Part shown: one piece after another, positions 11,889 to 59,404 of the stretch
How positions within the stretch are numbered: position 1 is the first letter of the stretch
Layout: each line of letters starts with the position of its first letter
From: Hirudinaria manillensis
Lineage: Eukaryota; Annelida; Clitellata; Hirudinida; Hirudinidae
Reading direction: 5' to 3'
Length of the DNA: 64,000 nt
NCBI GenBank assembly: GCA_034509925.1
Contig: CM067537.1
Span: 3,355,001 to 3,419,000, forward strand
Made by a program: the position numbers and the translations under genes
The notes under the pieces: model-generated
Told to the model about the DNA's origin: nothing
Database searches by the model: none
Seen by the model: the letters and a program-made list of their open reading frames with translations, nothing else

Positions 11889-11997
11889 AATAAAATGTTC
11901 TTATTCATAAATCATCGTATATAAATGAATTTCAACAAATTTTAAAAAAATAATAAAAAAACGTCAAATAATACTGAAGCGAGGGTTGAATAAGAAC

Positions 11998-12714
11998 GTG
12001 CAGCAGGCAGCCGACGAGTTTGATGGCGTGGACTATAGTAGAGCGAAGAAGAAGGCTAGACGTCCACTGCCAGAAAATTACCTTTGCCACGGATGCGGGT
12101 CGTTCGGACATTACATCGAAAACTGTCCGAGAATGCAAAACAGAAATAAAGACGAAAGCGTAAAAAAATTGAAACTGACCACAGGCATTCCAAAGAGCTT
12201 TCTGACGGAAGCGGACGACGTCAACGCACCGGGCGTTCTCCTCACTAGTTCCGGCAAACTTGTCGTGCCTAAGGCCGAGGCGCAGACGATTAAAGTGAAG
12301 GATGGCAATCAGGACGAGACTCCGGAACACTTTTACTGCGGCATATGCAGACAAATACAGACCGATTCGGTTTACTTGCCGTGTTGCATGAATTCCGCGT
12401 GCGATTTCTGCGCAATCACGGAACTGCTTCGCACCGAGAAGTGCAGCTTCTGCAAAAAGACCGGAGTCTCGGTGGCCGAAGTGACGCCAAACGAGGAACT
12501 GAGGATTGCCATCCTGAACAATCACGTACTAATTCCAAATATAAAGGACTTATTGACGGCGAACAAGTCCAAATTAAAAGCCGAGCAGGCTGTTCAAAAT
12601 GGAATTACCGCCCGGCCCGTGGAAAGCGAAAGTAGAGGGAACGCCAGAGGGAAGAGAAAGTGCGAAGAGACGAACAACTGTCCGGCCTCGAAGAAATGCA
12701 AGAAGATGCCTTAG
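11998..12714 (+). pseudogene. RBBP6-like array copy 1, 5'-truncated edge copy
   Basis: Matches codons 122-359 of the array gene, with the zinc knuckle and RING-like part intact. Promoter, 5'UTR, start codon and the whole DWNN domain are missing. Distal promoter sequence (cgagggttgaata) is joined directly to mid-coding sequence. Codon 122 ATG reads GTG here, and the first in-frame ATG is Met167, after the knuckle. Position 189 is Phe. The upstream spacer (11895-11990) is more diverged than in interior units, as expected at an array edge. Confidence 0.85.
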
Positions 12715-12851
12715 AAGACGCAAGACCCAAGAGACACGTGTTCCGGCAAGCCAATAATTTCAAGCCGGTCGTTCGAGAGAGATACTAACGAAATCTTACC
12801 TGTATGTAATTCCATTTTTTATATTTATGCCCTTTTTAATTATAAATTAAA

Positions 12852-12878
12852 AATAAAATTCTTAAAATAAAAAAAAAA
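12852..12878 (+). terminator. Poly(A) signals and A-run, copy 1 (repeated after each copy)
   Basis: AATAAA at 12852-12857 and 12866-12871 lead into a 10-A run at 12869-12878; another AATAAA lies at 12906. The equivalent block after copy 2 is at 14346-14372. Each unit repeats it. Confidence 0.6.
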
Positions 12879-12963
12879 TTTCTTATTCATAAATCATCGT
12901 ATGGAAATAAAATATAAAAAAAATAACATAACGTCAAATAATACTGACGCGAGGGTTGAATAA

Positions 12964-13069
12964 CACGTGCAAAGCGCGTTGGCCAGCCGTAGCCCGCACG
13001 CGCGCGCTCATTTGCATATGAATGCCCGCCGAACGTATATAAGGCCGAAAGCGCAACGAATAGTCATTC
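12964..13069 (+). promoter_or_regulatory. Array gene promoter (copy 2; repeated before each copy)
   Basis: In order: E-box CACGTG (12964-12969), a CG-alternating stretch cgcacgcgcgcgc (12996-13008), octamer ATTTGCAT (13010-13017), TATATAAG (13036-13043), and initiator TCATTC (13064-13069) with A+1 at 13066. The TATA T to A+1 distance is 30 bases, the canonical RNA polymerase II spacing. This leaves a 63-base 5'UTR before ATG 13129. The layout is the same before all intact copies I checked, before the right-edge stump (TATA 59313) and at the window end (TATA 63964). Confidence 0.85.
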
Positions 13070-13128
13070 TCTTCCCGGACGTCCACGAGTCAACATCTAG
13101 CTCCGCGCTCACCCGAATTATCACGAAA

Positions 13129-14208
13129 ATGTCGTCAGTGGTTCATTACAAATTCCAAAGCTCCTTGGATTCGGATGTCGTCCGTTTCGACGGACTCGAA
13201 ATCTCTGCGAGAAATTTAAAATTGAAAATCGCAGATGCAAAAAACTTGCAAAAATACCTGCTGCAATATGACTTGATGGTTAAGAATCCTGAGGCAGACA
13301 AAATTTACGAAGATGACGGCATGATCCCGAGAAATTCGTCGGTCGTTGTGTCGAGGATACCGATGGACGAGGAAAAACTTTGCAAAGCTCCTGTTAATAA
13401 ATCGACAGAGAAGCAGGCAGAGGTGGATTGGGGCTTCCTACGGCAAACTGCCGAATCGGACCTGAGCGAGGAGGAGAAATTGAAGAGAACGATGCAGCAG
13501 GCAGCCGACGAGTTTGATGGCGTGGACTATAGTAGAGCGAAGAAGAAGGCTAGACGTCCACTGCCAGAAAATTACCTTTGCCACGGATGCGGGTCGTTCG
13601 GACATTACATCGAAAACTGTCCGAGAATGCAAAACAGAAATAAAGACGAAAGCGTAAAAAAATTGAAACTGACCACAGGCATTCCAAAGAGCCTTCTGAC
13701 GGAAGCGGACGACGTCAACGCACCGGGCGTTCTCCTCACTAGTTCCGGCAAACTTGTCGTGCCTAAGGCCGAGGCGCAGACGATTAAAGTGAAGGATGGC
13801 AATCAGGACGAGACTCCGGAACACTTTTACTGCGGCATATGCAGACAAATACAGACCGATTCGGTTTACTTGCCGTGTTGCATGAATTCCGCGTGCGATT
13901 TCTGCGCAATCACGGAACTGCTTCGCACCGAGAAGTGCAGCTTCTGCAAAAAGACCGGAGTCTCGGTGGCCGAAGTGACGCCAAACGAGGAACTGAGGAT
14001 TGCCATCCTGAACAATCACGTACTAATTCCAAATATAAAGGACTTATTGACGGCGAACAAGTCCAAATTAAAAGCCGAGCAGGCTGTTCAAAATGGAATT
14101 ACCGCCCGGCCCGTGGAAAGCGAAAGTAGAGGGAACGCCAGAGGGAAGAGAAAGTGCGAAGAGACGAACAACTGTCCGGCCTCGAAGAAATGCAAGAAGA
14201 TGCCTTAG
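13129..14208 (+). CDS. RBBP6-like: RBBP6-like DWNN/zinc-knuckle/RING protein, array copy 2 (reference description)
   Basis: 359 aa, intronless. DWNN ubiquitin-like domain at residues 3-79 (VHYKFQSSLDSDVVRFDG; PRNSSVVVSRIP). CCHC knuckle with C151, C154, H159 and C164. RING/U-box-like domain with C235, C238, C250, C251, C255, C258, C270 and C273, the all-cysteine pattern of RBBP6. TGIPKS between them is also family-typical. A short basic tail (about 320-359, KRKCEE, KKCKK) replaces the long RS/Rb/p53-binding C-terminus of animal RBBP6, so the layout resembles yeast Mpe1. Family roles: nuclear subunit activating pre-mRNA 3'-end cleavage, and E3 ubiquitin ligase. Start ATG 13129 lies 63 nt after the predicted TSS, with A at -3. 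The open frame runs further upstream only through the promoter. Leu at 189; codon 30 is TTA. TATA 13036. The next start is 1494 bp away. Confidence 0.93.
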   Translation: MSSVVHYKFQSSLDSDVVRFDGLEISARNLKLKIADAKNLQKYLLQYDLMVKNPEADKIYEDDGMIPRNSSVVVSRIPMDEEKLCKAPVNKSTEKQAEVDWGFLRQTAESDLSEEEKLKRTMQQAADEFDGVDYSRAKKKARRPLPENYLCHGCGSFGHYIENCPRMQNRNKDESVKKLKLTTGIPKSLLTEADDVNAPGVLLTSSGKLVVPKAEAQTIKVKDGNQDETPEHFYCGICRQIQTDSVYLPCCMNSACDFCAITELLRTEKCSFCKKTGVSVAEVTPNEELRIAILNNHVLIPNIKDLLTANKSKLKAEQAVQNGITARPVESESRGNARGKRKCEETNNCPASKKCKKMP

Positions 14209-14622
14209 AAGACGCAAGACCCAAGAGACACGTGTTCCGGCAAGCCAATAATTTCAAGCCGGTCGTTCGAGAGAGATACTAACGAAATCTTACCTGTATG
14301 TAATTCCATTTTTTATATTTATGCCCTTTTTAATTATAAATTAAAAATAAAATTCTTAAAATAAAAAAAAAATTTCTTATTCATAAATCATCGTATGGAA
14401 ATAAAATATAAAAAAAATAACATAACGTCAAATAATACTGACGCGAGGGTTGAATAACACGTGCAAAGCGCGTTGGCCAGCCGTAGCCCGCACGCGCGCG
14501 CTCATTTGCATATGAATGCCCGCCGAACGTATATAAGGCCGAAAGCGCAACGAATAGTCATTCTCTTCCCGGACGTCCACGAGTCAACATCTAGCTCCGC
14601 GCTCACCCGAATTATCACGAAA

Positions 14623-15702
14623 ATGTCGTCAGTGGTTCATTACAAATTCCAAAGCTCCTTGGATTCGGATGTCGTCCGTTTCGACGGACTCGAAATCTCT
14701 GCGAGAAATTTAAAATTGAAAATCGCAGATGCAAAAAACTTGCAAAAATACCTGCTGCAATATGACTTGATGGTTAAGAATCCTGAGGCAGACAAAATTT
14801 ACGAAGATGACGGCATGATCCCGAGAAATTCGTCGGTCGTTGTGTCGAGGATACCGATGGACGAGGAAAAACTTTGCAAAGCTCCTGTTAATAAATCGAC
14901 AGAGAAGCAGGCAGAGGTGGATTGGGGCTTCCTACGGCAAACTGCCGAATCGGACCTGAGCGAGGAGGAGAAATTGAAGAGAACGATGCAGCAGGCAGCC
15001 GACGAGTTTGATGGCGTGGACTATAGTAGAGCGAAGAAGAAGGCTAGACGTCCACTGCCAGAAAATTACCTTTGCCACGGATGCGGGTCGTTCGGACATT
15101 ACATCGAAAACTGTCCGAGAATGCAAAACAGAAATAAAGACGAAAGCGTAAAAAAATTGAAACTGACCACAGGCATTCCAAAGAGCTTTCTGACGGAAGC
15201 GGACGACGTCAACGCACCGGGCGTTCTCCTCACTAGTTCCGGCAAACTTGTCGTGCCTAAGGCCGAGGCGCAGACGATTAAAGTGAAGGATGGCAATCAG
15301 GACGAGACTCCGGAACACTTTTACTGCGGCATATGCAGACAAATACAGACCGATTCGGTTTACTTGCCGTGTTGCATGAATTCCGCGTGCGATTTCTGCG
15401 CAATCACGGAACTGCTTCGCACCGAGAAGTGCAGCTTCTGCAAAAAGACCGGAGTCTCGGTGGCCGAAGTGACGCCAAACGAGGAACTGAGGATTGCCAT
15501 CCTGAACAATCACGTACTAATTCCAAATATAAAGGACTTATTGACGGCGAACAAGTCCAAATTAAAAGCCGAGCAGGCTGTTCAAAATGGAATTACCGCC
15601 CGGCCCGTGGAAAGCGAAAGTAGAGGGAACGCCAGAGGGAAGAGAAAGTGCGAAGAGACGAACAACTGTCCGGCCTCGAAGAAATGCAAGAAGATGCCTT
15701 AG
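14623..15702 (+). CDS. RBBP6-like: RBBP6-like protein, array copy 3
   Basis: Intact 359 aa. Phe189, codon 30 TTA: the family-like residue at 189. TATA 14530, predicted TSS 14560. The next start is 1494 bp away. Confidence 0.92.
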   Translation: MSSVVHYKFQSSLDSDVVRFDGLEISARNLKLKIADAKNLQKYLLQYDLMVKNPEADKIYEDDGMIPRNSSVVVSRIPMDEEKLCKAPVNKSTEKQAEVDWGFLRQTAESDLSEEEKLKRTMQQAADEFDGVDYSRAKKKARRPLPENYLCHGCGSFGHYIENCPRMQNRNKDESVKKLKLTTGIPKSFLTEADDVNAPGVLLTSSGKLVVPKAEAQTIKVKDGNQDETPEHFYCGICRQIQTDSVYLPCCMNSACDFCAITELLRTEKCSFCKKTGVSVAEVTPNEELRIAILNNHVLIPNIKDLLTANKSKLKAEQAVQNGITARPVESESRGNARGKRKCEETNNCPASKKCKKMP

Positions 15703-16116
15703 AAGACGCAAGACCCAAGAGACACGTGTTCCGGCAAGCCAATAATTTCAAGCCGGTCGTTCGAGAGAGATACTAACGAAATCTTACCTGTATGTAATTC
15801 CATTTTTTATATTTATGCCCTTTTTAATTATAAATTAAAAATAAAATTCTTAAAATAAAAAAAAAATTTCTTATTCATAAATCATCGTATGGAAATAAAA
15901 TATAAAAAAAATAACATAACGTCAAATAATACTGACGCGAGGGTTGAATAACACGTGCAAAGCGCGTTGGCCAGCCGTAGCCCGCACGCGCGCGCTCATT
16001 TGCATATGAATGCCCGCCGAACGTATATAAGGCCGAAAGCGCAACGAATAGTCATTCTCTTCCCGGACGTCCACGAGTCAACATCTAGCTCCGCGCTCAC
16101 CCGAATTATCACGAAA

Positions 16117-17196
16117 ATGTCGTCAGTGGTTCATTACAAATTCCAAAGCTCCTTGGATTCGGATGTCGTCCGTTTCGACGGACTCGAAATCTCTGCGAGA
16201 AATTTAAAATTGAAAATCGCAGATGCAAAAAACTTGCAAAAATACCTGCTGCAATATGACTTGATGGTTAAGAATCCTGAGGCAGACAAAATTTACGAAG
16301 ATGACGGCATGATCCCGAGAAATTCGTCGGTCGTTGTGTCGAGGATACCGATGGACGAGGAAAAACTTTGCAAAGCTCCTGTTAATAAATCGACAGAGAA
16401 GCAGGCAGAGGTGGATTGGGGCTTCCTACGGCAAACTGCCGAATCGGACCTGAGCGAGGAGGAGAAATTGAAGAGAACGATGCAGCAGGCAGCCGACGAG
16501 TTTGATGGCGTGGACTATAGTAGAGCGAAGAAGAAGGCTAGACGTCCACTGCCAGAAAATTACCTTTGCCACGGATGCGGGTCGTTCGGACATTACATCG
16601 AAAACTGTCCGAGAATGCAAAACAGAAATAAAGACGAAAGCGTAAAAAAATTGAAACTGACCACAGGCATTCCAAAGAGCCTTCTGACGGAAGCGGACGA
16701 CGTCAACGCACCGGGCGTTCTCCTCACTAGTTCCGGCAAACTTGTCGTGCCTAAGGCCGAGGCGCAGACGATTAAAGTGAAGGATGGCAATCAGGACGAG
16801 ACTCCGGAACACTTTTACTGCGGCATATGCAGACAAATACAGACCGATTCGGTTTACTTGCCGTGTTGCATGAATTCCGCGTGCGATTTCTGCGCAATCA
16901 CGGAACTGCTTCGCACCGAGAAGTGCAGCTTCTGCAAAAAGACCGGAGTCTCGGTGGCCGAAGTGACGCCAAACGAGGAACTGAGGATTGCCATCCTGAA
17001 CAATCACGTACTAATTCCAAATATAAAGGACTTATTGACGGCGAACAAGTCCAAATTAAAAGCCGAGCAGGCTGTTCAAAATGGAATTACCGCCCGGCCC
17101 GTGGAAAGCGAAAGTAGAGGGAACGCCAGAGGGAAGAGAAAGTGCGAAGAGACGAACAACTGTCCGGCCTCGAAGAAATGCAAGAAGATGCCTTAG
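16117..17196 (+). CDS. RBBP6-like: RBBP6-like protein, array copy 4
   Basis: Intact 359 aa. Leu189, codon 30 TTA. TATA 16024, predicted TSS 16054. First of three consecutive copies (4-6) indistinguishable at the variant sites tracked. Confidence 0.92.
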   Translation: MSSVVHYKFQSSLDSDVVRFDGLEISARNLKLKIADAKNLQKYLLQYDLMVKNPEADKIYEDDGMIPRNSSVVVSRIPMDEEKLCKAPVNKSTEKQAEVDWGFLRQTAESDLSEEEKLKRTMQQAADEFDGVDYSRAKKKARRPLPENYLCHGCGSFGHYIENCPRMQNRNKDESVKKLKLTTGIPKSLLTEADDVNAPGVLLTSSGKLVVPKAEAQTIKVKDGNQDETPEHFYCGICRQIQTDSVYLPCCMNSACDFCAITELLRTEKCSFCKKTGVSVAEVTPNEELRIAILNNHVLIPNIKDLLTANKSKLKAEQAVQNGITARPVESESRGNARGKRKCEETNNCPASKKCKKMP

Positions 17197-17610
17197 AAGA
17201 CGCAAGACCCAAGAGACACGTGTTCCGGCAAGCCAATAATTTCAAGCCGGTCGTTCGAGAGAGATACTAACGAAATCTTACCTGTATGTAATTCCATTTT
17301 TTATATTTATGCCCTTTTTAATTATAAATTAAAAATAAAATTCTTAAAATAAAAAAAAAATTTCTTATTCATAAATCATCGTATGGAAATAAAATATAAA
17401 AAAAATAACATAACGTCAAATAATACTGACGCGAGGGTTGAATAACACGTGCAAAGCGCGTTGGCCAGCCGTAGCCCGCACGCGCGCGCTCATTTGCATA
17501 TGAATGCCCGCCGAACGTATATAAGGCCGAAAGCGCAACGAATAGTCATTCTCTTCCCGGACGTCCACGAGTCAACATCTAGCTCCGCGCTCACCCGAAT
17601 TATCACGAAA

Positions 17611-18690
17611 ATGTCGTCAGTGGTTCATTACAAATTCCAAAGCTCCTTGGATTCGGATGTCGTCCGTTTCGACGGACTCGAAATCTCTGCGAGAAATTTA
17701 AAATTGAAAATCGCAGATGCAAAAAACTTGCAAAAATACCTGCTGCAATATGACTTGATGGTTAAGAATCCTGAGGCAGACAAAATTTACGAAGATGACG
17801 GCATGATCCCGAGAAATTCGTCGGTCGTTGTGTCGAGGATACCGATGGACGAGGAAAAACTTTGCAAAGCTCCTGTTAATAAATCGACAGAGAAGCAGGC
17901 AGAGGTGGATTGGGGCTTCCTACGGCAAACTGCCGAATCGGACCTGAGCGAGGAGGAGAAATTGAAGAGAACGATGCAGCAGGCAGCCGACGAGTTTGAT
18001 GGCGTGGACTATAGTAGAGCGAAGAAGAAGGCTAGACGTCCACTGCCAGAAAATTACCTTTGCCACGGATGCGGGTCGTTCGGACATTACATCGAAAACT
18101 GTCCGAGAATGCAAAACAGAAATAAAGACGAAAGCGTAAAAAAATTGAAACTGACCACAGGCATTCCAAAGAGCCTTCTGACGGAAGCGGACGACGTCAA
18201 CGCACCGGGCGTTCTCCTCACTAGTTCCGGCAAACTTGTCGTGCCTAAGGCCGAGGCGCAGACGATTAAAGTGAAGGATGGCAATCAGGACGAGACTCCG
18301 GAACACTTTTACTGCGGCATATGCAGACAAATACAGACCGATTCGGTTTACTTGCCGTGTTGCATGAATTCCGCGTGCGATTTCTGCGCAATCACGGAAC
18401 TGCTTCGCACCGAGAAGTGCAGCTTCTGCAAAAAGACCGGAGTCTCGGTGGCCGAAGTGACGCCAAACGAGGAACTGAGGATTGCCATCCTGAACAATCA
18501 CGTACTAATTCCAAATATAAAGGACTTATTGACGGCGAACAAGTCCAAATTAAAAGCCGAGCAGGCTGTTCAAAATGGAATTACCGCCCGGCCCGTGGAA
18601 AGCGAAAGTAGAGGGAACGCCAGAGGGAAGAGAAAGTGCGAAGAGACGAACAACTGTCCGGCCTCGAAGAAATGCAAGAAGATGCCTTAG
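17611..18690 (+). CDS. RBBP6-like: RBBP6-like protein, array copy 5
   Basis: Intact 359 aa. Leu189, codon 30 TTA. TATA 17518, predicted TSS 17548. 1494 bp to the next start. Confidence 0.92.
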   Translation: MSSVVHYKFQSSLDSDVVRFDGLEISARNLKLKIADAKNLQKYLLQYDLMVKNPEADKIYEDDGMIPRNSSVVVSRIPMDEEKLCKAPVNKSTEKQAEVDWGFLRQTAESDLSEEEKLKRTMQQAADEFDGVDYSRAKKKARRPLPENYLCHGCGSFGHYIENCPRMQNRNKDESVKKLKLTTGIPKSLLTEADDVNAPGVLLTSSGKLVVPKAEAQTIKVKDGNQDETPEHFYCGICRQIQTDSVYLPCCMNSACDFCAITELLRTEKCSFCKKTGVSVAEVTPNEELRIAILNNHVLIPNIKDLLTANKSKLKAEQAVQNGITARPVESESRGNARGKRKCEETNNCPASKKCKKMP

Positions 18691-19104
18691 AAGACGCAAG
18701 ACCCAAGAGACACGTGTTCCGGCAAGCCAATAATTTCAAGCCGGTCGTTCGAGAGAGATACTAACGAAATCTTACCTGTATGTAATTCCATTTTTTATAT
18801 TTATGCCCTTTTTAATTATAAATTAAAAATAAAATTCTTAAAATAAAAAAAAAATTTCTTATTCATAAATCATCGTATGGAAATAAAATATAAAAAAAAT
18901 AACATAACGTCAAATAATACTGACGCGAGGGTTGAATAACACGTGCAAAGCGCGTTGGCCAGCCGTAGCCCGCACGCGCGCGCTCATTTGCATATGAATG
19001 CCCGCCGAACGTATATAAGGCCGAAAGCGCAACGAATAGTCATTCTCTTCCCGGACGTCCACGAGTCAACATCTAGCTCCGCGCTCACCCGAATTATCAC
19101 GAAA

Positions 19105-20184
19105 ATGTCGTCAGTGGTTCATTACAAATTCCAAAGCTCCTTGGATTCGGATGTCGTCCGTTTCGACGGACTCGAAATCTCTGCGAGAAATTTAAAATTG
19201 AAAATCGCAGATGCAAAAAACTTGCAAAAATACCTGCTGCAATATGACTTGATGGTTAAGAATCCTGAGGCAGACAAAATTTACGAAGATGACGGCATGA
19301 TCCCGAGAAATTCGTCGGTCGTTGTGTCGAGGATACCGATGGACGAGGAAAAACTTTGCAAAGCTCCTGTTAATAAATCGACAGAGAAGCAGGCAGAGGT
19401 GGATTGGGGCTTCCTACGGCAAACTGCCGAATCGGACCTGAGCGAGGAGGAGAAATTGAAGAGAACGATGCAGCAGGCAGCCGACGAGTTTGATGGCGTG
19501 GACTATAGTAGAGCGAAGAAGAAGGCTAGACGTCCACTGCCAGAAAATTACCTTTGCCACGGATGCGGGTCGTTCGGACATTACATCGAAAACTGTCCGA
19601 GAATGCAAAACAGAAATAAAGACGAAAGCGTAAAAAAATTGAAACTGACCACAGGCATTCCAAAGAGCCTTCTGACGGAAGCGGACGACGTCAACGCACC
19701 GGGCGTTCTCCTCACTAGTTCCGGCAAACTTGTCGTGCCTAAGGCCGAGGCGCAGACGATTAAAGTGAAGGATGGCAATCAGGACGAGACTCCGGAACAC
19801 TTTTACTGCGGCATATGCAGACAAATACAGACCGATTCGGTTTACTTGCCGTGTTGCATGAATTCCGCGTGCGATTTCTGCGCAATCACGGAACTGCTTC
19901 GCACCGAGAAGTGCAGCTTCTGCAAAAAGACCGGAGTCTCGGTGGCCGAAGTGACGCCAAACGAGGAACTGAGGATTGCCATCCTGAACAATCACGTACT
20001 AATTCCAAATATAAAGGACTTATTGACGGCGAACAAGTCCAAATTAAAAGCCGAGCAGGCTGTTCAAAATGGAATTACCGCCCGGCCCGTGGAAAGCGAA
20101 AGTAGAGGGAACGCCAGAGGGAAGAGAAAGTGCGAAGAGACGAACAACTGTCCGGCCTCGAAGAAATGCAAGAAGATGCCTTAG
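19105..20184 (+). CDS. RBBP6-like: RBBP6-like protein, array copy 6
   Basis: Intact 359 aa. Leu189, codon 30 TTA. TATA 19012, predicted TSS 19042. Confidence 0.92.
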   Translation: MSSVVHYKFQSSLDSDVVRFDGLEISARNLKLKIADAKNLQKYLLQYDLMVKNPEADKIYEDDGMIPRNSSVVVSRIPMDEEKLCKAPVNKSTEKQAEVDWGFLRQTAESDLSEEEKLKRTMQQAADEFDGVDYSRAKKKARRPLPENYLCHGCGSFGHYIENCPRMQNRNKDESVKKLKLTTGIPKSLLTEADDVNAPGVLLTSSGKLVVPKAEAQTIKVKDGNQDETPEHFYCGICRQIQTDSVYLPCCMNSACDFCAITELLRTEKCSFCKKTGVSVAEVTPNEELRIAILNNHVLIPNIKDLLTANKSKLKAEQAVQNGITARPVESESRGNARGKRKCEETNNCPASKKCKKMP

Positions 20185-20598
20185 AAGACGCAAGACCCAA
20201 GAGACACGTGTTCCGGCAAGCCAATAATTTCAAGCCGGTCGTTCGAGAGAGATACTAACGAAATCTTACCTGTATGTAATTCCATTTTTTATATTTATGC
20301 CCTTTTTAATTATAAATTAAAAATAAAATTCTTAAAATAAAAAAAAAATTTCTTATTCATAAATCATCGTATGGAAATAAAATATAAAAAAAATAACATA
20401 ACGTCAAATAATACTGACGCGAGGGTTGAATAACACGTGCAAAGCGCGTTGGCCAGCCGTAGCCCGCACGCGCGCGCTCATTTGCATATGAATGCCCGCC
20501 GAACGTATATAAGGCCGAAAGCGCAACGAATAGTCATTCTCTTCCCGGACGTCCACGAGTCAACATCTAGCTCCGCGCTCACCCGAATTATCACGAAA

Positions 20599-21678: not shown

Positions 21679-22092
21679 AAGACGCAAGACCCAAGAGACA
21701 CGTGTTCCGGCAAGCCAATAATTTCAAGCCGGTCGTTCGAGAGAGATACTAACGAAATCTTACCTGTATGTAATTCCATTTTTTATATTTATGCCCTTTT
21801 TAATTATAAATTAAAAATAAAATTCTTAAAATAAAAAAAAAATTTCTTATTCATAAATCATCGTATGGAAATAAAATATAAAAAAAATAACATAACGTCA
21901 AATAATACTGACGCGAGGGTTGAATAACACGTGCAAAGCGCGTTGGCCAGCCGTAGCCCGCACGCGCGCGCTCATTTGCATATGAATGCCCGCCGAACGT
22001 ATATAAGGCCGAAAGCGCAACGAATAGTCATTCTCTTCCCGGACGTCCACGAGTCAACATCTAGCTCCGCGCTCACCCGAATTATCACGAAA

Positions 22093-48548: not shown

Positions 48549-48961
48549 AAGACGCAAGACCCAAGAGACACGTGTTCCGGCAAGCCAATAATTTCAAGCC
48601 GGTCGTTCGAGAGAGATACTAACGAAATCTTACCTGTATGTAATTCCATTTTTTATATTTATGCCCTTTTTAATTATAAATTAAAATAAAATTCTTAAAA
48701 TAAAAAAAAAATTTCTTATTCATAAATCATCGTATGGAAATAAAATATAAAAAAAATAACATAACGTCAAATAATACTGACGCGAGGGTTGAATAACACG
48801 TGCAAAGCGCGTTGGCCAGCCGTAGCCCGCACGCGCGCGCTCATTTGCATATGAATGCCCGCCGAACGTATATAAGGCCGAAAGCGCAACGAATAGTCAT
48901 TCTCTTCCCGGACGTCCACGAGTCAACATCTAGCTCCGCGCTCACCCGAATTATCACGAAA

Positions 48962-50041: not shown

Positions 50042-50447
50042 AAGACGCAAGACCCAAGAGACACGTGTTCCGGCAAGCCAATAATTTCAAGCCGGTCGTT
50101 CGAGAGAGATACTAACGAAATCTTACCTGTATGTAATTCCATTTTTTATATTTATGCCCTTTTTAATTAAAAATAAAATTCTTAAAATAAAAAAAAAATT
50201 TCTTATTCATAAATCATCGTATGGAAATAAAATATAAAAAAAATAACATAACGTCAAATAATACTGACGCGAGGGTTGAATAACACGTGCAAAGCGCGTT
50301 GGCCAGCCGTAGCCCGCACGCGCGCGCTCATTTGCATATGAATGCCCGCCGAACGTATATAAGGCCGAAAGCGCAACGAATAGTCATTCTCTTCCCGGAC
50401 GTCCACGAGTCAACATCTAGCTCGCGCTCACCCGAATTATCACGAAA

Positions 50448-51527
50448 ATGTCGTCAGTGGTTCATTACAAATTCCAAAGCTCCTTGGATTCGGATGTCGT
50501 CCGTTTCGACGGACTCGAAATCTCTGCGAGAAATTTGAAATTGAAAATCGCAGATGCAAAAAACTTGCAAAAATACCTGCTGCAATATGACTTGATGGTT
50601 AAGAATCCTGAGGCAGACAAAATTTACGAAGATGACGGCATGATCCCGAGAAATTCGTCGGTCGTTGTGTCGAGGATACCGATGGACGAGGAAAAACTTT
50701 GCAAAGCTCCTGTTAATAAATCGACAGAGAAGCAGGCAGAGGTGGATTGGGGCTTCCTACGGCAAACTGCCGAATCGGGCCTGAGCGAGGAGGAGAAATT
50801 GAAGAGAACGATGCAGCAGGCAGCCGACGAGTTTGATGGCGTGGACTATAGTAGAGCGAAGAAGAAGGCTAGACGTCCACTGCCAGAAAATTACCTTTGC
50901 CACGGATGCGGGTCGTTCGGACATTACATCGAAAACTGTCCGAGAATGCAAAACAGAAATAAAGACGAAAGCGTAAAAAAATTGAAACTGACCACAGGCA
51001 TTCCAAAGAGCCTTCTGACGGAAGCGGACGACGTCAACGCACCGGGCGTTCTCCTCACTAGTTCCGGCAAACTTGTCGTGCCTAAGGCCGAGGCGCAGAC
51101 GATTAAAGTGAAGGATGGCAATCAGGACGAGACTCCGGAACACTTTTACTGCGGCATATGCAGACAAATACAGACCGATTCGGTTTACTTGCCGTGTTGC
51201 ATGAATTCCGCGTGCGATTTCTGCGCAATCACGGAACTGCTTCGCACCGAGAAGTGCAGCTTCTGCAAAAAGACCGGAGTCTCGGTGGCCGAAGTGACGC
51301 CAAACGAGGAACTGAGGATTGCCATCCTGAACAATCACGTACTAATTCCAAATATAAAGGACTTATTGACGGCGAACAAGTCCAAATTAAAAGCCGAGCA
51401 GGCTGTTCAAAATGGAATTACCGCCCGGCCCGTGGAAAGCGAAAGTAGAGGGAACGCCAGAGGGAAGAGAAAGTGCGAAGAGACGAACAACTGTCCGGCC
51501 TCGAAGAAATGCAAGAAGATGCCTTAG
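50448..51527 (+). CDS. RBBP6-like: RBBP6-like protein, array copy 27 (Asp111Gly)
   Basis: Intact 359 aa. Unique GAC to GGC change at codon 111 (Asp to Gly), in the linker between DWNN and zinc knuckle. Leu189, codon 30 TTG, one-base 5'UTR deletion as in copies 17 and 24. TATA 50356, predicted TSS 50386. Confidence 0.92.
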   Translation: MSSVVHYKFQSSLDSDVVRFDGLEISARNLKLKIADAKNLQKYLLQYDLMVKNPEADKIYEDDGMIPRNSSVVVSRIPMDEEKLCKAPVNKSTEKQAEVDWGFLRQTAESGLSEEEKLKRTMQQAADEFDGVDYSRAKKKARRPLPENYLCHGCGSFGHYIENCPRMQNRNKDESVKKLKLTTGIPKSLLTEADDVNAPGVLLTSSGKLVVPKAEAQTIKVKDGNQDETPEHFYCGICRQIQTDSVYLPCCMNSACDFCAITELLRTEKCSFCKKTGVSVAEVTPNEELRIAILNNHVLIPNIKDLLTANKSKLKAEQAVQNGITARPVESESRGNARGKRKCEETNNCPASKKCKKMP

Positions 51528-51941
51528 AAGACGCAAGACCCAAGAGACACGTGTTCCGGCAAGCCAATAATTTCAAGCCGGTCGTTCGAGAGAGATACTA
51601 ACGAAATCTTACCTGTATGTAATTCCATTTTTTATATTTATGCCCTTTTTAATTATAAATTAAAAATAAAATTCTTAAAATAAAAAAAAAATTTCTTATT
51701 CATAAATCATCGTATGGAAATAAAATATAAAAAAAATAACATAACGTCAAATAATACTGACGCGAGGGTTGAATAACACGTGCAAAGCGCGTTGGCCAGC
51801 CGTAGCCCGCACGCGCGCGCTCATTTGCATATGAATGCCCGCCGAACGTATATAAGGCCGAAAGCGCAACGAATAGTCATTCTCTTCCCGGACGTCCACG
51901 AGTCAACATCTAGCTCCGCGCTCACCCGAATTATCACGAAA

Positions 51942-53021
51942 ATGTCGTCAGTGGTTCATTACAAATTCCAAAGCTCCTTGGATTCGGATGTCGTCCGTTT
52001 CGACGGACTCGAAATCTCTGCGAGAAATTTGAAATTGAAAATCGCAGATGCAAAAAACTTGCAAAAATACCTGCTGCAATATGACTTGATGGTTAAGAAT
52101 CCTGAGGCAGACAAAATTTACGAAGATGACGGCATGATCCCGAGAAATTCGTCGGTCGTTGTGTCGAGGATACCGATGGACGAGGAAAAACTTTGCAAAG
52201 CTCCTGTTAATAAATCGACAGAGAAGCAGGCAGAGGTGGATTGGGGCTTCCTACGGCAAACTGCCGAATCGGACCTGAGCGAGGAGGAGAAATTGAAGAG
52301 AACGATGCAGCAGGCAGCCGACGAGTTTGATGGCGTGGACTATAGTAGAGCGAAGAAGAAGGCTAGACGTCCACTGCCAGAAAATTACCTTTGCCACGGA
52401 TGCGGGTCGTTCGGACATTACATCGAAAACTGTCCGAGAATGCAAAACAGAAATAAAGACGAAAGCGTAAAAAAATTGAAACTGACCACAGGCATTCCAA
52501 AGAGCTTTCTGACGGAAGCGGACGACGTCAACGCACCGGGCGTTCTCCTCACTAGTTCCGGCAAACTTGTCGTGCCTAAGGCCGAGGCGCAGACGATTAA
52601 AGTGAAGGATGGCAATCAGGACGAGACTCCGGAACACTTTTACTGCGGCATATGCAGACAAATACAGACCGATTCGGTTTACTTGCCGTGTTGCATGAAT
52701 TCCGCGTGCGATTTCTGCGCAATCACGGAACTGCTTCGCACCGAGAAGTGCAGCTTCTGCAAAAAGACCGGAGTCTCGGTGGCCGAAGTGACGCCAAACG
52801 AGGAACTGAGGATTGCCATCCTGAACAATCACGTACTAATTCCAAATATAAAGGACTTATTGACGGCGAACAAGTCCAAATTAAAAGCCGAGCAGGCTGT
52901 TCAAAATGGAATTACCGCCCGGCCCGTGGAAAGCGAAAGTAGAGGGAACGCCAGAGGGAAGAGAAAGTGCGAAGAGACGAACAACTGTCCGGCCTCGAAG
53001 AAATGCAAGAAGATGCCTTAG
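51942..53021 (+). CDS. RBBP6-like: RBBP6-like protein, array copy 28
   Basis: Intact 359 aa. Phe189, codon 30 TTG. TATA 51849, predicted TSS 51879. Confidence 0.92.
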   Translation: MSSVVHYKFQSSLDSDVVRFDGLEISARNLKLKIADAKNLQKYLLQYDLMVKNPEADKIYEDDGMIPRNSSVVVSRIPMDEEKLCKAPVNKSTEKQAEVDWGFLRQTAESDLSEEEKLKRTMQQAADEFDGVDYSRAKKKARRPLPENYLCHGCGSFGHYIENCPRMQNRNKDESVKKLKLTTGIPKSFLTEADDVNAPGVLLTSSGKLVVPKAEAQTIKVKDGNQDETPEHFYCGICRQIQTDSVYLPCCMNSACDFCAITELLRTEKCSFCKKTGVSVAEVTPNEELRIAILNNHVLIPNIKDLLTANKSKLKAEQAVQNGITARPVESESRGNARGKRKCEETNNCPASKKCKKMP

Positions 53022-53435
53022 AAGACGCAAGACCCAAGAGACACGTGTTCCGGCAAGCCAATAATTTCAAGCCGGTCGTTCGAGAGAGATACTAACGAAA
53101 TCTTACCTGTATGTAATTCCATTTTTTATATTTATGCCCTTTTTAATTATAAATTAAAAATAAAATTCTTAAAATAAAAAAAAAATTTCTTATTCATAAA
53201 TCATCGTATGGAAATAAAATATAAAAAAAATAACATAACGTCAAATAATACTGACGCGAGGGTTGAATAACACGTGCAAAGCGCGTTGGCCAGCCGTAGC
53301 CCGCACGCGCGCGCTCATTTGCATATGAATGCCCGCCGAACGTATATAAGGCCGAAAGCGCAACGAATAGTCATTCTCTTCCCGGACGTCCACGAGTCAA
53401 CATCTAGCTCCGCGCTCACCCGAATTATCACGAAA

Positions 53436-54515
53436 ATGTCGTCAGTGGTTCATTACAAATTCCAAAGCTCCTTGGATTCGGATGTCGTCCGTTTCGACGG
53501 ACTCGAAATCTCTGCGAGAAATTTAAAATTGAAAATCGCAGATGCAAAAAACTTGCAAAAATACCTGCTGCAATATGACTTGATGGTTAAGAATCCTGAG
53601 GCAGACAAAATTTACGAAGATGACGGCATGATCCCGAGAAATTCGTCGGTCGTTGTGTCGAGGATACCGATGGACGAGGAAAAACTTTGCAAAGCTCCTG
53701 TTAATAAATCGACAGAGAAGCAGGCAGAGGTGGATTGGGGCTTCCTACGGCAAACTGCCGAATCGGACCTGAGCGAGGAGGAGAAATTGAAGAGAACGAT
53801 GCAGCAGGCAGCCGACGAGTTTGATGGCGTGGACTATAGTAGAGCGAAGAAGAAGGCTAGACGTCCACTGCCAGAAAATTACCTTTGCCACGGATGCGGG
53901 TCGTTCGGACATTACATCGAAAACTGTCCGAGAATGCAAAACAGAAATAAAGACGAAAGCGTAAAAAAATTGAAACTGACCACAGGCATTCCAAAGAGCT
54001 TTCTGACGGAAGCGGACGACGTCAACGCACCGGGCGTTCTCCTCACTAGTTCCGGCAAACTTGTCGTGCCTAAGGCCGAGGCGCAGACGATTAAAGTGAA
54101 GGATGGCAATCAGGACGAGACTCCGGAACACTTTTACTGCGGCATATGCAGACAAATACAGACCGATTCGGTTTACTTGCCGTGTTGCATGAATTCCGCG
54201 TGCGATTTCTGCGCAATCACGGAACTGCTTCGCACCGAGAAGTGCAGCTTCTGCAAAAAGACCGGAGTCTCGGTGGCCGAAGTGACGCCAAACGAGGAAC
54301 TGAGGATTGCCATCCTGAACAATCACGTACTAATTCCAAATATAAAGGACTTATTGACGGCGAACAAGTCCAAATTAAAAGCCGAGCAGGCTGTTCAAAA
54401 TGGAATTACCGCCCGGCCCGTGGAAAGCGAAAGTAGAGGGAACGCCAGAGGGAAGAGAAAGTGCGAAGAGACGAACAACTGTCCGGCCTCGAAGAAATGC
54501 AAGAAGATGCCTTAG
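53436..54515 (+). CDS. RBBP6-like: RBBP6-like protein, array copy 29
   Basis: Intact 359 aa. Phe189, codon 30 TTA. TATA 53343, predicted TSS 53373. Confidence 0.92.
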   Translation: MSSVVHYKFQSSLDSDVVRFDGLEISARNLKLKIADAKNLQKYLLQYDLMVKNPEADKIYEDDGMIPRNSSVVVSRIPMDEEKLCKAPVNKSTEKQAEVDWGFLRQTAESDLSEEEKLKRTMQQAADEFDGVDYSRAKKKARRPLPENYLCHGCGSFGHYIENCPRMQNRNKDESVKKLKLTTGIPKSFLTEADDVNAPGVLLTSSGKLVVPKAEAQTIKVKDGNQDETPEHFYCGICRQIQTDSVYLPCCMNSACDFCAITELLRTEKCSFCKKTGVSVAEVTPNEELRIAILNNHVLIPNIKDLLTANKSKLKAEQAVQNGITARPVESESRGNARGKRKCEETNNCPASKKCKKMP

Positions 54516-54929
54516 AAGACGCAAGACCCAAGAGACACGTGTTCCGGCAAGCCAATAATTTCAAGCCGGTCGTTCGAGAGAGATACTAACGAAATCTTAC
54601 CTGTATGTAATTCCATTTTTTATATTTATGCCCTTTTTAATTATAAATTAAAAATAAAATTCTTAAAATAAAAAAAAAATTTCTTATTCATAAATCATCG
54701 TATGGAAATAAAATATAAAAAAAATAACATAACGTCAAATAATACTGACGCGAGGGTTGAATAACACGTGCAAAGCGCGTTGGCCAGCCGTAGCCCGCAC
54801 GCGCGCGCTCATTTGCATATGAATGCCCGCCGAACGTATATAAGGCCGAAAGCGCAACGAATAGTCATTCTCTTCCCGGACGTCCACGAGTCAACATCTA
54901 GCTCCGCGCTCACCCGAATTATCACGAAA

Positions 54930-56009
54930 ATGTCGTCAGTGGTTCATTACAAATTCCAAAGCTCCTTGGATTCGGATGTCGTCCGTTTCGACGGACTCGA
55001 AATCTCTGCGAGAAATTTAAAATTGAAAATCGCAGATGCAAAAAACTTGCAAAAATACCTGCTGCAATATGACTTGATGGTTAAGAATCCTGAGGCAGAC
55101 AAAATTTACGAAGATGACGGCATGATCCCGAGAAATTCGTCGGTCGTTGTGTCGAGGATACCGATGGACGAGGAAAAACTTTGCAAAGCTCCTGTTAATA
55201 AATCGACAGAGAAGCAGGCAGAGGTGGATTGGGGCTTCCTACGGCAAACTGCCGAATCGGACCTGAGCGAGGAGGAGAAATTGAAGAGAACGATGCAGCA
55301 GGCAGCCGACGAGTTTGATGGCGTGGACTATAGTAGAGCGAAGAAGAAGGCTAGACGTCCACTGCCAGAAAATTACCTTTGCCACGGATGCGGGTCGTTC
55401 GGACATTACATCGAAAACTGTCCGAGAATGCAAAACAGAAATAAAGACGAAAGCGTAAAAAAATTGAAACTGACCACAGGCATTCCAAAGAGCCTTCTGA
55501 CGGAAGCGGACGACGTCAACGCACCGGGCGTTCTCCTCACTAGTTCCGGCAAACTTGTCGTGCCTAAGGCCGAGGCGCAGACGATTAAAGTGAAGGATGG
55601 CAATCAGGACGAGACTCCGGAACACTTTTACTGCGGCATATGCAGACAAATACAGACCGATTCGGTTTACTTGCCGTGTTGCATGAATTCCGCGTGCGAT
55701 TTCTGCGCAATCACGGAACTGCTTCGCACCGAGAAGTGCAGCTTCTGCAAAAAGACCGGAGTCTCGGTGGCCGAAGTGACGCCAAACGAGGAACTGAGGA
55801 TTGCCATCCTGAACAATCACGTACTAATTCCAAATATAAAGGACTTATTGACGGCGAACAAGTCCAAATTAAAAGCCGAGCAGGCTGTTCAAAATGGAAT
55901 TACCGCCCGGCCCGTGGAAAGCGAAAGTAGAGGGAACGCCAGAGGGAAGAGAAAGTGCGAAGAGACGAACAACTGTCCGGCCTCGAAGAAATGCAAGAAG
56001 ATGCCTTAG
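54930..56009 (+). CDS. RBBP6-like: RBBP6-like protein, array copy 30
   Basis: Intact 359 aa. Leu189, codon 30 TTA. TATA 54837, predicted TSS 54867. Confidence 0.92.
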   Translation: MSSVVHYKFQSSLDSDVVRFDGLEISARNLKLKIADAKNLQKYLLQYDLMVKNPEADKIYEDDGMIPRNSSVVVSRIPMDEEKLCKAPVNKSTEKQAEVDWGFLRQTAESDLSEEEKLKRTMQQAADEFDGVDYSRAKKKARRPLPENYLCHGCGSFGHYIENCPRMQNRNKDESVKKLKLTTGIPKSLLTEADDVNAPGVLLTSSGKLVVPKAEAQTIKVKDGNQDETPEHFYCGICRQIQTDSVYLPCCMNSACDFCAITELLRTEKCSFCKKTGVSVAEVTPNEELRIAILNNHVLIPNIKDLLTANKSKLKAEQAVQNGITARPVESESRGNARGKRKCEETNNCPASKKCKKMP

Positions 56010-56423
56010 AAGACGCAAGACCCAAGAGACACGTGTTCCGGCAAGCCAATAATTTCAAGCCGGTCGTTCGAGAGAGATACTAACGAAATCTTACCTGTAT
56101 GTAATTCCATTTTTTATATTTATGCCCTTTTTAATTATAAATTAAAAATAAAATTCTTAAAATAAAAAAAAAATTTCTTATTCATAAATCATCGTATGGA
56201 AATAAAATATAAAAAAAATAACATAACGTCAAATAATACTGACGCGAGGGTTGAATAACACGTGCAAAGCGCGTTGGCCAGCCGTAGCCCGCACGCGCGC
56301 GCTCATTTGCATATGAATGCCCGCCGAACGTATATAAGGCCGAAAGCGCAACGAATAGTCATTCTCTTCCCGGACGTCCACGAGTCAACATCTAGCTCCG
56401 CGCTCACCCGAATTATCACGAAA

Positions 56424-57503
56424 ATGTCGTCAGTGGTTCATTACAAATTCCAAAGCTCCTTGGATTCGGATGTCGTCCGTTTCGACGGACTCGAAATCTC
56501 TGCGAGAAATTTAAAATTGAAAATCGCAGATGCAAAAAACTTGCAAAAATACCTGCTGCAATATGACTTGATGGTTAAGAATCCTGAGGCAGACAAAATT
56601 TACGAAGATGACGGCATGATCCCGAGAAATTCGTCGGTCGTTGTGTCGAGGATACCGATGGACGAGGAAAAACTTTGCAAAGCTCCTGTTAATAAATCGA
56701 CAGAGAAGCAGGCAGAGGTGGATTGGGGCTTCCTACGGCAAACTGCCGAATCGGACCTGAGCGAGGAGGAGAAATTGAAGAGAACGATGCAGCAGGCAGC
56801 CGACGAGTTTGATGGCGTGGACTATAGTAGAGCGAAGAAGAAGGCTAGACGTCCACTGCCAGAAAATTACCTTTGCCACGGATGCGGGTCGTTCGGACAT
56901 TACATCGAAAACTGTCCGAGAATGCAAAACAGAAATAAAGACGAAAGCGTAAAAAAATTGAAACTGACCACAGGCATTCCAAAGAGCTTTCTGACGGAAG
57001 CGGACGACGTCAACGCACCGGGCGTTCTCCTCACTAGTTCCGGCAAACTTGTCGTGCCTAAGGCCGAGGCGCAGACGATTAAAGTGAAGGATGGCAATCA
57101 GGACGAGACTCCGGAACACTTTTACTGCGGCATATGCAGACAAATACAGACCGATTCGGTTTACTTGCCGTGTTGCATGAATTCCGCGTGCGATTTCTGC
57201 GCAATCACGGAACTGCTTCGCACCGAGAAGTGCAGCTTCTGCAAAAAGACCGGAGTCTCGGTGGCCGAAGTGACGCCAAACGAGGAACTGAGGATTGCCA
57301 TCCTGAACAATCACGTACTAATTCCAAATATAAAGGACTTATTGACGGCGAACAAGTCCAAATTAAAAGCCGAGCAGGCTGTTCAAAATGGAATTACCGC
57401 CCGGCCCGTGGAAAGCGAAAGTAGAGGGAACGCCAGAGGGAAGAGAAAGTGCGAAGAGACGAACAACTGTCCGGCCTCGAAGAAATGCAAGAAGATGCCT
57501 TAG
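56424..57503 (+). CDS. RBBP6-like: RBBP6-like protein, array copy 31
   Basis: Intact 359 aa. Phe189, codon 30 TTA. TATA 56331, predicted TSS 56361. The downstream tract is the tatccca form, 6 bp shorter (1488 bp period). Confidence 0.92.
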   Translation: MSSVVHYKFQSSLDSDVVRFDGLEISARNLKLKIADAKNLQKYLLQYDLMVKNPEADKIYEDDGMIPRNSSVVVSRIPMDEEKLCKAPVNKSTEKQAEVDWGFLRQTAESDLSEEEKLKRTMQQAADEFDGVDYSRAKKKARRPLPENYLCHGCGSFGHYIENCPRMQNRNKDESVKKLKLTTGIPKSFLTEADDVNAPGVLLTSSGKLVVPKAEAQTIKVKDGNQDETPEHFYCGICRQIQTDSVYLPCCMNSACDFCAITELLRTEKCSFCKKTGVSVAEVTPNEELRIAILNNHVLIPNIKDLLTANKSKLKAEQAVQNGITARPVESESRGNARGKRKCEETNNCPASKKCKKMP

Positions 57504-57911
57504 AAGACGCAAGACCCAAGAGACACGTGTTCCGGCAAGCCAATAATTTCAAGCCGGTCGTTCGAGAGAGATACTAACGAAATCTTACCTGTATGTAATT
57601 CCATTTTTTATATTTATCCCATTTTTAATTTAAAAATAAAATTCTTAAAATAAAAAAAAAATTTCTTATTCATAAATCATCGTATGGAAATAAAATATAA
57701 AAAAAATAACATAACGTCAAATAATACTGACGCGAGGGTTGAATAACACGTGCAAAGCGCGTTGGCCAGCCGTAGCCCGCACGCGCGCGCTCATTTGCAT
57801 ATGAATGCCCGCCGAACGTATATAAGGCCGAAAGCGCAACGAATAGTCATTCTCTTCCCGGACGTCCACGAGTCAACATCTAGCTCCGCGCTCACCCGAA
57901 TTATCACGAAA

Positions 57912-58991
57912 ATGTCGTCAGTGGTTCATTACAAATTCCAAAGCTCCTTGGATTCGGATGTCGTCCGTTTCGACGGACTCGAAATCTCTGCGAGAAATTT
58001 GAAATTGAAAATCGCAGATGCAAAAAACTTGCAAAAATACCTGCTGCAATATGACTTGATGGTTAAGAATCCTGAGGCAGACAAAATTTACGAAGATGAC
58101 GGCATGATCCCGAGAAATTCGTCGGTCGTTGTGTCGAGGATACCGATGGACGAGGAAAAACTTTGCAAAGCTCCTGTTAATAAATCGACAGAGAAGCAGG
58201 CAGAGGTGGATTGGGGCTTCCTACGGCAAACTGCCGAATCGGACCTGAGCGAGGAGGAGAAATTGAAGAGAACGATGCAGCAGGCAGCCGACGAGTTTGA
58301 TGGCGTGGACTATAGTAGAGCGAAGAAGAAGGCTAGACGTCCACTGCCAGAAAATTACCTTTGCCACGGATGCGGGTCGTTCGGACATTACATCGAAAAC
58401 TGTCCGAGAATGCAAAACAGAAATAAAGACGAAAGCGTAAAAAAATTGAAACTGACCACAGGCATTCCAAAGAGCTTTCTGACGGAAGCGGACGACGTCA
58501 ACGCACCGGGCGTTCTCCTCACTAGTTCCGGCAAACTTGTCGTGCCTAAGGCCGAGGCGCAGACGATTAAAGTGAAGGATGGCAATCAGGACGAGACTCC
58601 GGAACACTTTTACTGCGGCATATGCAGACAAATACAGACCGATTCGGTTTACTTGCCGTGTTGCATGAATTCCGCGTGCGATTTCTGCGCAATCACGGAA
58701 CTGCTTCGCACCGAGAAGTGCAGCTTCTGCAAAAAGACCGGAGTCTCGGTGGCCGAAGTGACGCCAAACGAGGAACTGAGGATTGCCATCCTGAACAATC
58801 ACGTACTAATTCCAAATATAAAGGACTTATTGACGGCGAACAAGTCCAAATTAAAAGCCGAGCAGGCTGTTCAAAATGGAATTACCGCCCGGCCCGTGGA
58901 AAGCGAAAGTAGAGGGAACGCCAGAGGGAAGAGAAAGTGCGAAGAGACGAACAACTGTCCGGCCTCGAAGAAATGCAAGAAGATGCCTTAG
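57912..58991 (+). CDS. RBBP6-like: RBBP6-like protein, array copy 32 (last intact copy)
   Basis: Intact 359 aa. Phe189, codon 30 TTG. TATA 57819, predicted TSS 57849. Followed by a normal 3' region and the promoter of a truncated unit. Confidence 0.92.
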   Translation: MSSVVHYKFQSSLDSDVVRFDGLEISARNLKLKIADAKNLQKYLLQYDLMVKNPEADKIYEDDGMIPRNSSVVVSRIPMDEEKLCKAPVNKSTEKQAEVDWGFLRQTAESDLSEEEKLKRTMQQAADEFDGVDYSRAKKKARRPLPENYLCHGCGSFGHYIENCPRMQNRNKDESVKKLKLTTGIPKSFLTEADDVNAPGVLLTSSGKLVVPKAEAQTIKVKDGNQDETPEHFYCGICRQIQTDSVYLPCCMNSACDFCAITELLRTEKCSFCKKTGVSVAEVTPNEELRIAILNNHVLIPNIKDLLTANKSKLKAEQAVQNGITARPVESESRGNARGKRKCEETNNCPASKKCKKMP

Positions 58992-59240
58992 AAGACGCAA
59001 GACCCAAGAGACACGTGTTCCGGCAAGCCAATAATTTCAAGCCGGTCGTTCGAGAGAGATACTAACGAAATCTTACCTGTATGTAATTCCATTTTTTATA
59101 TTTATGCCCTTTTAAATTATAAATTAAAAATAAAATTCTTAAAATAAAAAAAAAATTTCTTATTCATAAATCATCGTATGGAAATAAAATATAAAAAAAA
59201 TAACATAACGTCAAATAATACTGACGCGAGGGTTGAATAA

Positions 59241-59404
59241 CACGTGCAAAGCGCGTTGGCCAGCCGTAGCCCGCACGCGCGCGCTCATTTGCATATGAAT
59301 GCCCGCCGAACGTATATAAGGCCGAAAGCGCAACGAATAGTCATTCTCTTCCCGGACGTCCACGAGTCAACATCTAGCTCCGCGAGACTCCGAAACACTT
59401 TTTA
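59241..59404 (+). pseudogene. RBBP6-like array copy 33, promoter-only stump
   Basis: Complete promoter (E-box 59241, TATA 59313, initiator A about 59343) and 5'UTR up to ctagctccgcg. This is fused to about 20 bases matching codons 228-233 (gagactccgaaacactttt), after which flanking-block sequence starts. Start codon, DWNN domain and zinc knuckle are deleted. If transcribed, it would read out into the flanking block. Confidence 0.85.

Follow-up and report, generated by a model that had tools for sequence, protein, structure and literature searches.

An array of 31 intronless RBBP6-like genes

The window analysed here, a 64,000-nucleotide stretch of DNA from the leech Hirudinaria manillensis (C12:3355001-3419000 in a genome of 148,429,096 bp and 23 contigs), contains a tandem array of 31 intact, intronless genes for a short protein related to RBBP6/Mpe1, which sequence comparison almost certainly identifies as a retrogene derived from RBBP6. 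The COI gene of the mitochondrial contig matched Poecilobdella javanica at 97% and Hirudinaria manillensis at 96% identity. Three other arrays in the genome, encoding different proteins, were found to have the same promoter layout, and the four arrays together with a zinc-finger family at three further sites are probably regulated jointly, as a set of intronless genes that have been amplified and several of which encode paralogues of factors for gene expression.

The 31 complete units, of about 1,494 bp each (range 1487-1502 bp, 1494 being the commonest length), occupy 12963..59239 on the forward strand, and each has a promoter, a 5' untranslated region (UTR), an intronless RBBP6-like coding sequence (CDS) and a poly(A) signal. 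ATG-to-stop open reading frames (ORFs) numbered 31, all on the forward strand, with ATGs from 13129 to 57912 and an ATG-to-ATG distance of 1486-1503 bp; in the ORF listing the first intact CDS, of 359 amino acids (aa), lies at 13129..14208 (+) and the last of the 30 further copies at 57912-58991. The product is 359 aa long in 30 of the 31 units and 362 aa in unit 23. Every unit (31/31) carried TATATAAG, the 16-mer ATTTGCATATGAATGC and an AATAAA within 220 nucleotides past the stop (candidate poly(A) signals of the first unit, 14346..14365, +), and the CCHC and eight-Cys RING-like spacings were likewise conserved in 31/31, bearing out what had been proposed about intact same-strand genes with signals in each copy. 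An antisense ORF of 193 aa (13438-14019, -) recurs in intact units, most probably just as a by-product of coding on the opposite strand.

The units were also as homogenised as first proposed, with pairwise substitution identities, gaps excluded, of 0.9966-1.0 (99.66-100%) and a mean of 0.9989 (99.89%). The alignment varied in 26 columns, and the 31 units reduced to 17 different sequences, with 6 different CDSs and 4 different proteins; two biallelic CDS columns, 256 and 731, occurred in all four combinations among the units, indicating exchange between array copies. Near-identical units could also arise if a few copies had been expanded or stitched together during assembly, but this is almost out of the question given the unit-specific variants (a 9-bp insertion and several spacer alleles), the lack of any N in the window, and a longest exact repeat within the array region of 7,584 bp compared with the mean read length of 18.73 kb of the H. 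manillensis HiFi assembly (PMC10671345; this and the other papers below are cited from excerpts). With a gapless window and exact repeats of that size, a gross artefact is unlikely and the array should be resolvable; the array is almost certainly real. Leeches are hermaphrodite, and if this holds here a comparison of copy number between sexes is inapplicable.

Both array edges were degenerate. At the left, a diverged spacer (78%) and a 5'-truncated copy beginning within the CDS lie at 11882..12962 (+), and at the right a 32nd unit is represented by its promoter and 5'UTR, with no CDS, at 59240..59383 (+), so that the span of 11892-59404 originally assigned to the array does hold the 31 complete units but also takes in these two incomplete pieces. 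A second, degenerate block of 3'UTR, spacer and promoter begins at 63630..64000 (+), and the right flank is made up of rearranged fragments, some inverted, extending past the window to about C12:3420840.

The encoded protein and its relatives

The array protein has the domain order of RBBP6, starting with a ubiquitin-like DWNN domain at residues 5-78 (13141..13362, +; Pfam PF08783, E 3.8e-19), which also matched PDB 2c7h (E 9.6e-13). Pfam domain positions were corrected by 54 residues for an in-frame stretch ahead of the ATG. There follow a CCHC zinc knuckle at residues 146-165 (13564..13623, +), which passed the Pfam cut-off (PF13696, E 1.5e-7), a PSR-like stretch from GIP (Pro186) to residue 219 (13678..13785, +) with an Ile where the canonical leech RBBP6 has a Tyr, and an eight-Cys RING-like domain at residues 235-273 (13831..13947, +). 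This last domain fell below the cut-off for Pfam RING models (zf-C3HC4_3) and matched the RBBP6 RING chain 3ztg in phmmer (E 1.1e-10); that match and the Cys spacing show the C4C4 type of RING found in RBBP6/Mpe1. Where the human RING has the Pro of its CPTC, the array protein has Ser. All 31 proteins end in KKMP. The domains and the origin were thus correctly recognised in the initial annotation, although the product is a divergent short paralogue and not RBBP6 itself.

Besides edge fragments, the family was found at four loci elsewhere in the genome: a single dispersed copy (L009, C12:3100007), an intronless gene for 451 aa (L010, C7:7866504), an intronless 952-aa gene with an RS-rich tail (L011, C7:8382940; L011:2514-5369, -), and an exon-split gene (L012, C7:7961655-7964689) which we take as the canonical leech RBBP6. 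Pieces of L012 were recovered by tblastn at 7674-7507, 7418-7347, 5377-5282, 5240-4968, 4813-4688 and 4617-4483; the gene is split at five places with a change of reading frame at each, the fifth intron being backed by an in-frame stop as well, whereas the array gene, L009, L010 and L011 are continuous at these places. L012 is therefore the separate intron-bearing RBBP6 that the genome check was meant to find, and over its aligned exon pieces the array protein is about 45-53% identical to it. With intronless copies of a multi-exon parent, arranged head to tail, homogenised and with degenerate edges, the array matches in these respects the tandem retrogene arrays of the ELOA3/USP17 kind. L011 is a full-length intronless RBBP6 retrocopy with the PSR Tyr retained.

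Outside this genome the only ORFs of the short clade were P0004 (62%), P0005 (59%) and P0006 (53%), which presumably come from other leeches; the matches that followed were distant, fungal Mpe1 among them, and a search of viral contigs for relatives of the array protein gave none. P0004 represents 28 clustered sequences and P0006 two, and the size of the P0004 cluster hints at several copies of the array-type gene in a further species.

The array unit and L009 were 98-100% identical from the promoter to about unit position 870, and beyond that 62-96% identical in 100-column windows, the minimum being the last window, which enters the next spacer. Ks was 0.042 over codons 1-233 and 0.17 after them, and Ka/Ks was 0.13 (6 synonymous and 3 other changes) and 0.47, respectively, with an overall value of 0.35 in copies that appear to exchange sequence. 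This mosaic of identity suggests sequence exchange over about 270 kb, and the spacer-like sequence on either side of L009 suggests that the solo copy may be the relic of an older array. In the first unit aligned, small insertions near the 3' end changed the frame ahead of the TAG, shortening the array protein by about 23 aa relative to L009; the C-termini of L009 and P0004 share a related tail (FKPVVRKR/KPVLRRRY). The early statement that no copy has a stop or frameshift accordingly holds for the integrity of all 31 ORFs but not for the 3' end as compared with the solo copy.

One departure from RBBP6 concerned the PSR. Human Y228 comes 33 residues after P195, and CPSF activation depends on each of the two, the mutants Y228G and P195G being 'almost completely ineffective' (PMC8887125). 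The RNA-contacting proline (human P195) is retained in the array protein as the Pro186 of GIP. Counting 33 residues from this conserved Pro, we located the Y228 equivalent, which was a Tyr in L012 (where the count spans an intron) and L011, and in the short clade an Ile in the array protein and L009, a Lys in L010 and P0006, and an Asn in P0004 and P0005. The PSR aromatic (human Y228, yeast W257) was thus absent from 6/6 short-clade proteins, so its loss marks the entire clade. The Arg aligned to human R74, a residue mutated together with D43 in published work, is also retained in the array protein. The C-terminal RS, Rb and p53 extension of metazoan RBBP6 is absent, the array protein stopping 86 residues after the RING, at residue 359, and RS-rich tails are present in L011 and at the L012 locus. 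With the aromatic and the long tail missing, the earlier label of cleavage and polyadenylation factor has to be regarded as functionally unproven.

These residues bear on the possibility that the array simply supplies ordinary RBBP6 function, that is CPSF activation, in bulk. Retention of the DWNN domain, the knuckle, the RNA-contact Pro and the C4C4 RING would fit such a dosage effect, as would the in vitro activity of the tail-less human fragment RBBP6 1-335 (PMC8887125), but we consider it quite unlikely in view of the distance from the canonical protein and the loss throughout the short clade of a Y228 equivalent that L012 and L011 have kept. In yeast, PSR mutants of Mpe1 performed worse in vitro than the absence of Mpe1 (PMC9380774), which makes a role of the array protein as a competitor or modulator plausible; that it acts in this way rather than as a plain activator is, judged from the sequence, an even call.

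A promoter layout shared by four arrays

In the first unit, CACGTG, which we take to be an E-box, lies at 12964..12969 (+), at -165 from the ATG. Downstream are the 16-mer ATTTGCATATGAATGC, containing the octamer ATTTGCAT (13010..13025, +), TATATAAG 18 bp past the octamer (13036..13043, +), and TCATT (13064..13068, +), 28 bp past the TATA start and probably initiator-like by its position. The idea that a long promoter block had been captured from elsewhere was rejected, as a 251-bp promoter query gave 35 matches, none away from family copies (31 in the array and 4 at the edges, the right-flank fragment and the solo copy). L010 has the octamer ATGCAAAT 92 bp ahead of its ATG and no TATATAA; the octamer in this single-copy relative suggests that its use may predate the amplification.

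A genome search for the promoter core (octamer, 18 bp, TATATAAG) located the further arrays. The largest, at C2:7857804-7922862, has 83 promoter copies and encodes a TFIIA-gamma-like protein, with 82 full TFIIA-gamma C-domains and 1 partial; two whole units were read and held an identical 102-aa ORF, whose product matched the Pfam family (E 8e-18) and, in the PDB, human TFIIA subunit 2 (E 1.5e-28). TFIIA-gamma is also encoded by a separate exon-split gene on C6 and by an intronless solo copy on C2; the solo copy shares 50% identity with the array product, and neither an octamer nor TATATAA lies near its start. 'Transcription factor IIA complex' is listed among the expanded gene families of two blood-feeding leeches, in an account whose excerpt mentions neither arrays nor promoters (PMC10087013). 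A C2H2 zinc-finger array at C5:1061786-1108869 has 33 promoter copies in blocks of 11 and 22; a THAP domain suspected there by eye was rejected, THAP being absent from the 25 of 26 Pfam families listed. The fourth array, at C5:1316819-1338162, has 22 copies, all with intact 242-aa ORFs (22/22), for an acidic orphan protein in units 96.0-100% identical, with the 16-mer ATTTGCATATGAATGC exact in 19/22 copies and with one mismatch in 3/22. Searches of Pfam and the PDB with the acidic protein gave nothing at the curated cut-off and a single chance-level PDB match (E 1), and a degenerate copy was seen at the left edge of the region (C5:1316819-1338887). The three-site C2H2 family (C5:2101678, 3672681 and 3674102) has ATTTGCATATGAATG with TATAAAAG, and intact 211-aa ORFs at two sites, the other being degenerate.

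The arrays having been found through the promoter, their sharing it is no test; the weight lies with the concentration of sites, the identical spacing and the octamer-less histone repeats. The exact 16-mer ATTTGCATATGAATGC had 53 sites in the 148 Mb, 19 of them in the C5 acidic array and 34 on C12, where all fell in the array locus, its right flank or the solo copy; elsewhere in the genome there were none. The combination ATTTGCAT N8-38 TATATAAG had 76 genome sites as against 11 for the reversed control, with 67 of the 76 in two arrays, edge pieces or the solo copy and the 9 elsewhere not above control, and ATGCAAAT N8-38 TATATAAG had 108 sites as against 4. For the latter, 100 of the 108 places were listed, with 83 on C2, 16 on C5 and 1 elsewhere, 99 of them within two arrays. 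The distance from octamer start to TATA was 26 bp in three arrays, with an identical 18-bp gap, and 36 bp in the acidic array; TCATT lay 28-29 bp past the TATA start in 3/4 arrays, and CACGTG occurred within 200 bp upstream in 3/4, its frequency in 80 kb taken from elsewhere being 0.15 per kb. As a general class, octamer plus TATAAAAG was rejected as not enriched (71 sites, 105 for the reversed control), barring the three C5 sites. Histone-like regulation of the array was also ruled out: within 260 bp upstream of histone ORFs, in 10 kb covering two leech repeats, no octamer was found, and TATATAA occurred only at H2A.

A proposed explanation

Our favoured explanation, to which as a whole we give a probability of about 0.5, starts from a processed RBBP6 copy that would have lost the introns and most of the tail and founded a family of short genes distinct from RBBP6. 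One Hirudinaria copy, with the 3' frameshift already in place, would then have been amplified to an array of about 47 kb, its uniformity presumably maintained by unequal exchange and gene conversion. Each unit carries what appears to be a compact RNA polymerase II promoter of its own (octamer, 18 bp, TATATAAG, TCATT), and one POU-type activator may switch on the four arrays and the three-site zinc-finger family together, many short intronless copies allowing fast, high output in a brief window. That window could be the germline or early embryo (growing oocyte, male germ line, embryo), a setting that seems to us as easily wrong as right, transcription itself being deduced from the sequence. Without the Y228-type aromatic, the array protein would probably lack the capacity of RBBP6 to activate the cleavage complex; instead it might compete with canonical RBBP6 or modulate it, or be a ubiquitin ligase in its own right.

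The same homogeneity could be that of a neutral macrosatellite, in which a retrogene landed in a region of unequal crossing-over, the ORFs are intact from recent homogenisation and the protein has no job. Very high unit identity, a 3' frameshift fixed in every copy, degenerate copies at both edges and the broken copies of the zinc-finger array are all consistent with this; nevertheless, we regard it as unlikely, because short-clade ORFs are intact in other sources, Ka/Ks against the solo copy is below 1, and the promoter is present in 31/31 units and common to three unrelated arrays. A germline selfish or drive-type array, of which Stellate in Drosophila is an example, would expand through interference with its canonical relative, and an amplified paralogue lacking a key contact residue could indeed poison the canonical complex, while the arrayed copies do show signs of exchange. 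Such genetic conflict is nonetheless highly unlikely, as a promoter common to the TFIIA-gamma array suits a programme better than a single driver; no suppressor was seen, though none was searched for.

Several points weigh against the favoured explanation, beginning with the promoter. Allowing one mismatch to ATTTGCATATGAATGC added 25 sites, 3 in the acidic array and 22 elsewhere, compared with 1 for the reversed control, so that near-matches are no rarity; the acidic array, with its octamer at 36 bp, has no CACGTG and no TCATT at the matching place. The reversed control patterns hold CpG that the real ones lack, so the background is perhaps understated, and a search that found arrays by this promoter would miss arrays that lack it, the histone cluster being one. 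The zinc-finger array is partly broken: 6 of its 33 units were read, with a 205-aa ORF in 2, a 209-aa variant in 1, a stop at 175 aa in 2 and an early break in the outermost 1. The CpG in the control and these broken copies lowered our confidence in the co-regulated set. We have presumed from familiar motifs that the octamer is a POU site and TCATT an initiator, and the tissue of expression, like transcription at all, is deduced from the sequence. On the protein side, the function of Y228 could be supplied by another residue, human D43 aligns to Gln in both the canonical and the array leech proteins, and the predicted structure of the array protein was unusable (mean pLDDT 43.9 from a 7-row alignment). 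The RBBP6 tail is not needed for cleavage in vitro (PMC8887125), so its loss is by itself uninformative.

A wider and rather doubtful extension of the favoured explanation is that some 170 tandem intronless copies under one octamer-TATA promoter type make up a stage-specific alternative kit for gene expression, TFIIA-gamma possibly serving initiation and the RBBP6-like protein 3'-end control, alongside zinc-finger regulators and the acidic protein. If true, the leech would be operating a second basal machinery in its germ line or early embryo. A set of unrelated arrays under one stereotyped core promoter would in itself mean that whole programmes, and not just single genes, can be scaled by tandem intronless amplification, and it would become testable whether some cell type replaces initiation (TFIIA-gamma) and 3'-end control (RBBP6) with special versions. 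The promoter pattern gives a convenient means of searching for additional members and for the activator.

Neighbouring and unrelated sequence

Adjoining the left edge of the array, at 10800-11880, is an ORF that we take by eye to be gag-like, with what looks like a DSGAD protease motif; a Pfam search with it gave no match. Elsewhere, a 4,144-bp stretch on C9 (L023:2416-6559) is 99.7% identical to the mitochondrial contig and represents either a recent nuclear copy or an assembly error.

Comparison with known systems

Like the array, the leech histone clusters are tandem with several copies, although the C10 histone repeat, with 9 H3 copies about 5 kb apart, has fewer than the 31 units described here. 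The initial annotation had thought such an organisation familiar from histone and rRNA genes but not from a factor of this kind, a view not supported in the light of the ELOA3 (PMC10664989) and DUB/USP17 (PMC2874809) clusters. The DUB/USP17 genes resemble the leech array in being ubiquitin-pathway genes in a tandem repeat, USP17 having expanded independently across lineages, but they encode a deubiquitinase and not a RING/DWNN protein, and the excerpt mentions no octamer-TATA promoter class (PMC2874809). The protein itself follows RBBP6/Mpe1 in the order of DWNN domain, zinc knuckle, PSR Pro and RING (PMC8887125, PMC9380774), differing in being short, intronless and 31-fold, and without the PSR aromatic and the C-terminal RS, Rb and p53 regions. 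For the amplified TFIIA-gamma and the TATA promoters, the oocyte TBPL2/TFIIA system offers a parallel, with specialised basal factors at a germline stage that prefer TATA-like promoters (PMC7755920); as a vertebrate system, it may serve as a functional parallel only.

Together with DUB/USP17, the closest single-array counterpart is the primate ELOA3 cluster, likewise a homogenised tandem array of retrogenes without introns, whose product is a paralogue of a general RNA polymerase II factor; the ancestor is multi-exon, the ORFs are mostly intact and the copies at the edges are truncated (PMC10664989). As described in the excerpt, ELOA3 is a single array with repeat elements in each unit and no sister arrays under the same promoter (PMC10664989). 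In the titles and abstract openings of the open-licence papers listed in our searches we found no account of RBBP6 or TFIIA-gamma arrays, and retrogene arrays for transcription or ubiquitin factors have been known singly and scattered. Single retrogene arrays are therefore not new; what looks new is the set of arrays under one promoter type, with at least four arrays of different proteins sharing one promoter layout, in an annelid.

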